Assembly: GCF_028368935.1 (NCBI RefSeq)
Contig: NZ_JAQNDK010000007.1
Location: 310,001-374,000, forward strand
DNA length: 64,000 nucleotides
Direction of reading: 5' to 3'
From: Sorangium aterium
Lineage (GTDB): Bacteria > Myxococcota_A > Polyangia > Polyangiales > Polyangiaceae
Below are positions 60,574 through 63,099 of the stretch, one piece after another. The notes under the pieces were generated by a model. It was not told where the DNA came from, did not search any database, and saw only the letters and a list, made by a program, of their open reading frames with translations. Position numbers and translations under genes: made by a program. The first letter of the stretch is position 1. Every line of letters begins with the position of its first letter.

Positions 60574-63099
60574 TCAATCCGCAATGGGCTTCGGCGTGTT
60601 GGGCCCGCTCTCCGGCAGGTCCGGCTTCGCGATGTACTCCTTCGGGAGCTCGCCCGTCAGGCTCTTCAGCCACACCACGATCTGCTCGACCTGGGTATGG
60701 GACAGGTCCTTGCCGAGCTGGTGCTTCCCCATGAGCCGCACCGCCTCCTGCAGCGACGAGACGGACCCGTCGTGGAAGTACGGCGCCGTCATGGCCACGT
60801 TGCGGAGCGTCGGCACCCGGAAGACCATGAAATCGGCCTGCTTCTTCGTGATCTCGAAGACGCCGCGGTCCATCGTGTCCGGCCACGACCGCACGAGGCC
60901 GAGCTTCTGGAACATCGTCGCCCCGACGTGCGGGCCGAAATGGCACGTCACGCAGCCGACCTCGACGAACGTGTTGAACCCTTCCTTCTCCGCGTTGGTC
61001 AGGGCCTCGGGCTCCCCCTCCAGGAACAGGTCCCACCGCCCGCGCGTGATCAGCTTGCGCTCGAACGCGCCGATCGCCTTCGCGGTGTTGTTCGCGTTGA
61101 CGGGCCACGGATCGTTCGGAAACGCCCTGCCGAACGCCTTCACGTACTCCGGGATGGAGCGCAGCGTCGCCTCCAGCCGCACCGGCGTCATCGCCATCTC
61201 GCTCGGGTTCATCATCGGCCCGTTGGCCTGGGCCTCGACGTTGTCGAAGCGCCCGTCCCACATGAGCGAGAAGAACCCCGCGGAGTTGTACACGCTCGGC
61301 GTGTTGCGGCGGCCGCTCTGGTGGGCGTGCCCGATCGACACCTTCGCCCCGTCCGCGCCGTAGCGGTCGAGCGGGTGGCACGAGTTGCACGCGAGGTCGT
61401 GGTTCTTCGAGAGCCGCGTGTCGTAGTAGAGCATCCGGCCGAGGTTGATCTTCTCGTCCGTGAGCGGGTTGCTCGAGGACGTGATGACCGCGGGCAGCGG
61501 GTTGAAGCTCCCGAGCCGCTCCGGATCGATCTGCACGGCCGGCTCGGCCGGGGCCGCGGACGCCCCCGGCGCCGCGGTGGCCGCGGCCGGGGCGGCGGCC
61601 GCCGGCGCGGGCTGCGTCCCGCCGGTCGCCGGGGCGGACGCCGCCGCCGTCGTCTTCTGCACGAGCCAGGCGCCGACGAGGGCGCCCGTCGCCGCGACCA
61701 GCGCCGCCGCCGCCACGAGCGGGGCCGCCCTGCTGCGGGGCCGCACGTGGGCGGTCGGCTGGTCGCCCGCCACGATGATCGTCTTCTGGAAGGGCACGGA
61801 GGTGCCCGAGACCGTCCTCGAGGGCGGGCCGTCCGGGAGCCCGCGGATCAGGAGGCCGTGCGGGGTCGTGTGGTGGCCGCTCTGGGTCGTGTGGTGGCCG
61901 CTCTGGGTCGCGTGGTGCTGCCCGCTCTGGCCGAGGTGCCCGCTGTGCGTGACGTGCTCGGGCCAGCTGCGGGGCGTCCCCACGGGCGTGGGCGGGCGCC
62001 GCGTCGAGATCTCGCCGGGGTCCGGCCAGCTGCGGGACGTGCCCGCGGGCGTCGGCGTGCGCCGCGAGAGCTCCGCGCTGTTCTGCCAGCTGCGGGGCGT
62101 CCCCACGGGCGTGGGCGGGCGCCGCGTCGGGGCGTCGGGGTTCGGCGGCCCCTGCGAGGGCGGCGGGGCGTCGGCCTGCAGCGAGTCGGGCAGGGGCCGC
62201 AGCATGCTCTCGTAGATCGAGATGCCGTGCGGCAGGAGCATCCGGCACTCGTCGAGCATCTCCGCCGCGCTCTGGAAGCGCAGGTTCCTGTCGATCTGGA
62301 GCGCGCGCGCGACGATCTCGGAGACCTCGTACGGCACCCAGGGCGCCAGGCTCTGGATGGGCGGCGCCGGGGTCGAACAGATCGCGACGATGAGCTCGCC
62401 GAGCCCCCGCGAGTTCCTGTAGGGGGTGCGCCCGGCGAGCATCTTGAAGAGGACGATGCCGAGCGACCAGACGTCGGTCCGGCCGTCGACGTCCCGCATG
62501 TTGCGCGCCTGCTCGGGCGACATGTAGATGGGCGAGCCGATCAGGTTGCTCGTGGCCGTGAGCTCCTGGTGGTGCTCGAACGAGTCGTCGGCCTGGATCT
62601 TGGCGACGCCGAAGTCGAGCAGCTTGACCGAGTACTCGCCCCCGTCGCGCCGCGCCAGGAACAGGTTGGCCGGCTTGATGTCGCGGTGGAGGACGCGCGC
62701 GTCGTGCGCCTTGATGAGGCCCATGCACGCCTGGGCCACGATGCAGAGCGCGAGCTCGGGCGGCAGGGGGCCGAGCCGCCGGAGCATCTGGTCGACGTCC
62801 TCGCCGTTGAGCAGCTCCATCACGAGGAAGGGCAGGCCGGTCGCGCGGTCCCTGCCGCTATCGAGCACGCTCGCGATGTGCTCGCTGTCGATCGCGCCGG
62901 CCGCCCTGGCCTCGCGCTCGAAGCGGGCCATCACCGCCTCGTCCTGCGCGAGCTTGCTCGTGATCACCTTGACGGCGACGCGGCGGCCCGTGCCCAGGTG
63001 CCGAGCCTCGTAGACCGCCCCCATCCCGCCTTCCCCGAGCAGCCCGAGGATGAGGTACCGTTGATCGAGGGTCGTGTTGATCAGGTTGATGTCCGTCAT
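60574..63099 (-). CDS. Ser/Thr kinase fused to an exported di-haem cytochrome c peroxidase
   Basis: An 841-residue single-chain fusion. Cytoplasmic Hanks kinase at about 14-285: G-loop GEGGMGAV (22-29), K44, HRDIKPANL (138-146), DFG (162-164), SPEQ. A Pro-rich linker carries three RRxPTPxGTxRSW repeats (about 326-379), then a His-rich stretch with QSGHHTT (about 385-412). One membrane helix is at about 458-480. The outside part is an Ala/Pro spacer and a CcpA/MauG-type domain with CNSCH (571-575) and CVTCH (716-720). The CxxCH motifs need periplasmic haem attachment, matching the topology. Signalling of peroxide or redox state to the kinase is inferred. The ATG at 63099 is the start. Confidence 0.9.
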   Translation of the reverse strand: MTDINLINTTLDQRYLILGLLGEGGMGAVYEARHLGTGRRVAVKVITSKLAQDEAVMARFEREARAAGAIDSEHIASVLDSGRDRATGLPFLVMELLNGEDVDQMLRRLGPLPPELALCIVAQACMGLIKAHDARVLHRDIKPANLFLARRDGGEYSVKLLDFGVAKIQADDSFEHHQELTATSNLIGSPIYMSPEQARNMRDVDGRTDVWSLGIVLFKMLAGRTPYRNSRGLGELIVAICSTPAPPIQSLAPWVPYEVSEIVARALQIDRNLRFQSAAEMLDECRMLLPHGISIYESMLRPLPDSLQADAPPPSQGPPNPDAPTRRPPTPVGTPRSWQNSAELSRRTPTPAGTSRSWPDPGEISTRRPPTPVGTPRSWPEHVTHSGHLGQSGQHHATQSGHHTTQSGHHTTPHGLLIRGLPDGPPSRTVSGTSVPFQKTIIVAGDQPTAHVRPRSRAAPLVAAAALVAATGALVGAWLVQKTTAAASAPATGGTQPAPAAAAPAAATAAPGASAAPAEPAVQIDPERLGSFNPLPAVITSSSNPLTDEKINLGRMLYYDTRLSKNHDLACNSCHPLDRYGADGAKVSIGHAHQSGRRNTPSVYNSAGFFSLMWDGRFDNVEAQANGPMMNPSEMAMTPVRLEATLRSIPEYVKAFGRAFPNDPWPVNANNTAKAIGAFERKLITRGRWDLFLEGEPEALTNAEKEGFNTFVEVGCVTCHFGPHVGATMFQKLGLVRSWPDTMDRGVFEITKKQADFMVFRVPTLRNVAMTAPYFHDGSVSSLQEAVRLMGKHQLGKDLSHTQVEQIVVWLKSLTGELPKEYIAKPDLPESGPNTPKPIAD

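Follow-up and report, generated by a model that had tools for sequence, protein, structure and literature searches.

What could a bacterial receptor kinase sense with a di-haem peroxidase as its outer domain? The question is raised by a gene in a 64,000-nucleotide stretch of the Sorangium aterium genome (contig NZ_JAQNDK010000007.1; the whole stretch is called the window below). Sorangium has hundreds of Ser/Thr kinases and almost no known input signals for them; 508 such kinases have been reported in S. cellulosum So0157-2 (PMC3696898). The first-pass annotation of the window had interpreted the gene product as a transmembrane kinase that could sense peroxide or the periplasmic redox state directly, an interpretation that as a whole is partly supported by the analysis presented here. 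The features discussed are listed in Table 1.

Table 1. Features of the kinase-peroxidase gene, its surroundings and related loci. Positions refer to the window unless a locus (L) is named; F2 and F3 are fusion types defined in the text.
Feature	Position	Strand	Basis
Whole gene, 841 aa: kinase, linker, membrane helix, di-haem peroxidase	60574..63099	-	ATG at 63099, stop 60574-60576
Hanks-type Ser/Thr kinase domain, residues 18-276	62272..63048	-	Pfam and residue check
Juxtamembrane linker (RRPPTP-type repeats, variable His-rich stretch), then membrane helix	61651..62271	-	Orthologue comparison, hydropathy, AlphaFold2
Imperfect RRPPTPVGTPRSW repeats in linker	61962-62129	-	
Membrane helix, residues 462-483	61651-61716	-	Hydropathy and AlphaFold2 model
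Periplasmic di-haem cytochrome c peroxidase domain, residues 534-841	60577..61500	-	Pfam, PDB sequence matches, fold match 2vhd
P-haem site CNSCH (571-575), His = His55 of P. aeruginosa enzyme	61375..61389	-	Alignment
H591 = distal His71 (S in F2, N in F3)	61327..61329	-	Alignment
E634 = catalytic Glu114 (A in all F2; E in 57/57 stand-alone relatives)	61198..61200	-	
E-haem site CVTCH (716-720), His = His201	60940..60954	-	Alignment
M790 = Met275, E-haem axial ligand (Tyr in MauG)	60730..60732	-	
TAT-signal LolA-like periplasmic protein, 40 nt downstream of kinase-peroxidase gene	59883..60533	-	Profile search
NRPS-like protein beside LolA-like gene	52675-59355	-	
MbnP-like protein, then MbnH-family di-haem enzyme	1697-4270	+	
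SCO1-like protein	9-899	-	By eye
Lipoxygenase gene upstream of F2 kinase-peroxidase, two Sorangium genomes	L047:5776-7833, L045:5680-8001	-	
Truncated F2 fusion frame	L046:942-2687	-	

The gene is read as a single frame without an internal stop, and its product matches Pfam domains Pkinase (residues 18-276, 136 bits) and CCP_MauG (residues 549-696, 169 bits). Together with the orthologues, which are fused likewise, this bears out the claim that kinase, membrane helix and di-haem peroxidase form one chain, and both haem motifs that had been named, CNSCH and CVTCH, were located. Since both motifs come after the membrane helix, and c-type haem is attached on the periplasmic side, the kinase is predicted to be cytoplasmic and the haem domain periplasmic. 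Cytochrome c assembly genes were found in the genome that contains the window (13.47 Mb), and the outer domain is probably loaded with haem.

The kinase half was described as a complete Hanks kinase, and every key residue checked is indeed present: the glycine loop, K44, E63, HRD (138-140), K142, N145 and DFG (162-164), as well as E196, D209 and R274. No Pfam match to PASTA repeats was found in the protein. Assignment to the PASTA kinases (PknB/Stk1) was rejected, the NF033483 model scoring 254 bits against a cut-off of 450. The two closest paralogues encoded in the same genome, 59% and 57% identical to the window kinase, both lack a haem domain. Among orthologues the linker evolves fast and the two domains are more constrained. 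The His-rich linker stretch had been suggested to bind metal; it occurs in the window protein and in one same-genus orthologue (genome G164) and is absent from two close ones (G165 and G166), and is therefore not a conserved metal site. The linker also contains imperfect RRPPTPVGTPRSW repeats, which vary among orthologues and are possible phosphorylation sites.

To assign the outer domain, we mapped its residues by hand from an alignment onto the P. aeruginosa enzyme (1eb7) and also scored them in the 67-row alignment and tree described below. Compared with 1eb7, the domain retains His55, His71, Trp94, Gln104, Glu114, His201 and Met275. Its best matches among PDB sequences are the bacterial cytochrome c peroxidases (BCCPs) of N. 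gonorrhoeae and P. aeruginosa, with 261-267 bits. The top Foldseek match of the AlphaFold2 model is 2vhd, the mixed-valence form of the P. aeruginosa enzyme (E 2e-31, TM 0.90 by target), and the best fold matches share 40-43% identity with the domain. By sequence and modelled fold, the outer domain is thus a complete canonical BCCP.

To see how far the fusion extends, we searched with the haem domain at the level of order (184 genomes), class (318) and phylum (379), sets that overlap and together comprise ~592 distinct Myxococcota genomes, and tested long frames for a kinase; the match lists were limited by E-value, so that more distant fusions would escape. The search yielded ten fusions, nine of them full-length and the tenth with its kinase truncated, all in one family, Polyangiaceae. 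They fall into three types. F1 has five members: the window protein, those of G164 (taken as S. cellulosum So0157-2), G165 and G166 of the same genus, and that of G155 from another genus of the family. F2 is present in G153, in G168, as a second copy in G164 and in truncated form in G167, and F3 in G114 alone, which is also present as a named Polyangiaceae MAG. The checked kinase residues are intact in all full-length fusions, except for one glycine-loop position in F3. The G167 frame encodes only the kinase C-lobe; its N-lobe may have been lost through a deletion, a frameshift or an assembly break.

The haem part of the window protein is 83-91% identical to those of the three same-genus F1 orthologues and 64% identical to that of G155. 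All four are fused in the same order of parts and in one frame, with neither a stop nor a frameshift between helix and haem domain, which confirms that the fusion is no assembly artefact, sequencing error or chance read-through. The co-occurrence of Pkinase and CCP_MauG that had been expected across myxobacteria held for several genera of Polyangiaceae; outside that family none was found in the Myxococcota genomes searched, nor was the fusion found in ~790 genomes sampled from Acidobacteriota and Planctomycetota. Adjacent separate kinase and peroxidase genes were not seen as the usual state in homologues: a kinase frame flanks few of the stand-alone peroxidase loci. The stand-alone relatives that were inspected resemble lipoproteins. 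Many long frames around peroxidases hold no kinase, and several of them are read-through of GC-rich DNA.

The evolutionary histories of the two halves differ. In the 67-row tree the ten fused haem domains all group in a single clade (support 100/99), and an earlier quick 74-row haem-domain tree likewise places the fused domains together. In the 65-row kinase tree, however, the fused kinases are scattered over at least three positions, with kinases that lack a haem domain as neighbours at each, and forcing them into one clade is rejected (AU test, p = 6e-8). A single fusion followed by vertical descent of both halves in all cases is thereby ruled out. The F1 kinases, including that of G155, are compatible with a single clade (p = 0.49), and F1 may thus represent one fusion event that includes the second genus. 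Either the haem-and-helix part, once fused, shifted from one kinase to another, or a single peroxidase lineage, now unsampled, was captured several times. With one haem clade and at least three kinase lineages, a single kind of input has been joined to several outputs; in the light of the trees, the sensor lineage looks like a portable input module.

We consider direct sensing of peroxide or of the periplasmic redox state, as the annotation had proposed, the best reading of these data. In this reading, to which we assign a probability of roughly 0.55, the protein would be a receptor Ser/Thr kinase gated by a redox- or peroxide-linked conformational and dimer change of its periplasmic BCCP domain. 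Two reported switches are joined in it. Reduction of BCCPs frees the distal His, which shifts to the dimer interface (PMC10094543), and bacterial receptor Ser/Thr kinases, PknB among them, are reported to be switched by ligand-induced dimerisation (PMC6213207). Periplasmic carriers would pass electrons to the E haem, the C-terminal one. As happens in soluble BCCPs, the loop with the distal His would then swing from the N-terminal (P) haem to the dimer face, and peroxide turnover would re-oxidise the haem pair and reset the domain. Because dimerisation is the general switch of such receptor kinases, the balance between reduced and oxidised, or between dimeric and monomeric, forms of the outer domain would determine how active the kinase is, and the cytoplasm would thereby be informed of peroxide or of the redox state of the periplasm. 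The fusion, the intact residues, the conservation and the reuse of one haem-domain lineage are observed, and the topology is predicted; haem loading, catalysis, the signal, its coupling to the kinase and the substrates are inferred. Sensing is favoured by the full-length conservation of F1, by the retained kinase and BCCP residues, by the pairing of one haem clade with several kinase lineages, by the pattern of loss in F2 described below, by the contrast between a fast-evolving linker and two constrained domains, by the modelled BCCP fold and by the cytochrome c assembly genes. On the other side, dimerisation of BCCPs has been described for enzymes that are soluble or anchored in the outer membrane, whereas here the domain would sit on a kinase; the His71-loop residues that stack in the P. 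aeruginosa dimer, Gly72 and Trp73, are replaced by Ala and His in the window protein; and the genes neighbouring F1 show no clear redox theme.

The F2 branch bears on the nature of the signal. All fused proteins keep both haem motifs, Trp94, Gln104 and Met275, and F1 holds every peroxidatic residue (H71, W94, Q104, E114 and M275), so that its outer domain is probably active as a peroxidase. Glu114, present in F1, F3 and each of the 57 stand-alone relatives in the 67-row tree, has been replaced by Ala in each of the four F2 proteins. His71, found in 52 of the 57 stand-alone rows, is Ser in the same four and Asn in F3. F2 was accordingly not counted as a canonical BCCP. The full-length F2 copies nevertheless keep all checked kinase residues, and such a pattern, with catalytic residues gone and haem sites and kinase kept, is what would be expected of a domain retained for sensing. 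As the F2 fusion persists without its peroxidatic residues, peroxide itself need not be the signal. The outer domain might instead sense a gas or an oxidised lipid at an open P-haem, above all in F2, where the loss of distal His and catalytic Glu would leave that haem open and non-peroxidatic. In two Sorangium genomes (G164 and G168) a lipoxygenase gene precedes the F2 gene in the same orientation, ~230 nt away by frame coordinates. This arrangement points to lipid hydroperoxides or oxylipins as a signal that F2 might read, and a diheme CCP subfamily of P. aeruginosa reportedly acts on fatty acids (PMC4496055). However, this synteny occurs in only two genomes and is missing at the F2 gene of G153, and the F1 protein of the window has all peroxidatic residues and no lipoxygenase neighbour. 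As an account of the fusions, sensing of something other than H2O2 therefore seems unlikely.

The dependence between the two halves might also be reversed, the outer domain being a tethered H2O2-detoxifying enzyme whose level is set by the kinase through phosphorylation of its own linker or of a partner. This arrangement would agree with the intact peroxidatic residues of F1 and with RRPPTP-type linker repeats that could be phosphorylated. It is harder to reconcile with F2, which keeps kinase and fusion without E114 and H71, with the stand-alone BCCP that the window's genome already has, and with the lack of an evident route from a cytoplasmic kinase to a periplasmic active site, and we regard it as improbable. 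A chance or decaying fusion without a signalling role might account for the narrow distribution and for the G167 frame without its kinase N-lobe; it is highly improbable given the persistence of the fusion in several species and genera with kinase residues intact and the recurrence of the same haem-domain lineage on different kinases. Least credible of all is an enzyme that oxidises a partner protein in the manner of MauG or MbnH, as the annotation had also considered: the curated models do match weakly (MbnH 166 bits, MauG 139 bits), but far below their cut-offs (363 and 444), Met275 is kept, and PDB sequence scores drop from the BCCP values above to 128 bits for the MbnH-type enzyme and ~80 for MauG.

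The proposed redox- or peroxide-gated kinase shares with PknB, PrkC and PknD a cytoplasmic N-terminal kinase, one helix and an outer sensor domain. Outer domains known for such kinases include PASTA, beta-propeller and similar ones (PMC6213207). In line with the annotation, which knew of no system of this build, none with a haem-containing outer domain was found in the open literature searched, although the myxobacterial kinome study of Perez et al. (2008) may mention one. P. aeruginosa CcpA (1eb7/2vhd), N. gonorrhoeae CcpR (6fu3) and Geobacter MacA have the same fold, two CxxCH motifs, H71, W94, Q104, E114 and M275; canonical BCCPs are free, lipid-anchored or equipped with extra haems, none with a kinase, whereas the window protein carries the domain outside the membrane, at the C-terminal end of a membrane kinase. 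MauG and MbnH share the Pfam family CCP_MauG and differ in axial ligand and subfamily, as well as in modifying partner proteins. Haem state controls kinase activity, as proposed here, in the histidine kinases FixL and DosS and the Ser/Thr kinase HRI. These proteins, mostly histidine kinases, are cytoplasmic and bind b-type haem in PAS/GAF or unrelated domains, unlike the two covalent c-type haems expected in a periplasmic peroxidase.

New here are the portable haem module on at least three kinase lineages, the residue loss in F2 and the position of F2 after a lipoxygenase gene. That these fusions are the first receptor Ser/Thr kinase family with a di-haem c-type peroxidase sensor, that the module is portable and that F2 is a non-peroxidatic receptor, perhaps reading lipoxygenase products, is a combined proposal that we rate a little short of an even chance. 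The input cofactor has well-characterised redox chemistry and a conformational switch, making signal, switch and output directly testable, and F1 and F2 offer a natural comparison of a likely active with a likely inactive peroxidase on the same kinase type. If the reading is correct, these proteins would offer a way of translating peroxide or the redox state of the periplasm into protein phosphorylation.

The surroundings of the gene vary. The LolA-like gene adjoins the kinase gene in the three same-genus genomes and does not in G155; its best NCBIfam match, a weak one, is LolA2 of flexirubin clusters. Beside it in the window lies a gene for an NRPS-like protein with two AMP-binding, condensation, carrier and nitroreductase domains, which was not found in the orthologous loci. 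At the opposite end of the window, an MbnP-like protein (recognised by eye), an MbnH-family enzyme (482 bits, above the cut-off) and a nearby SCO1-like protein constitute a copper-related MbnPH set, ~56 kb from the kinase-peroxidase gene and unrelated to it.
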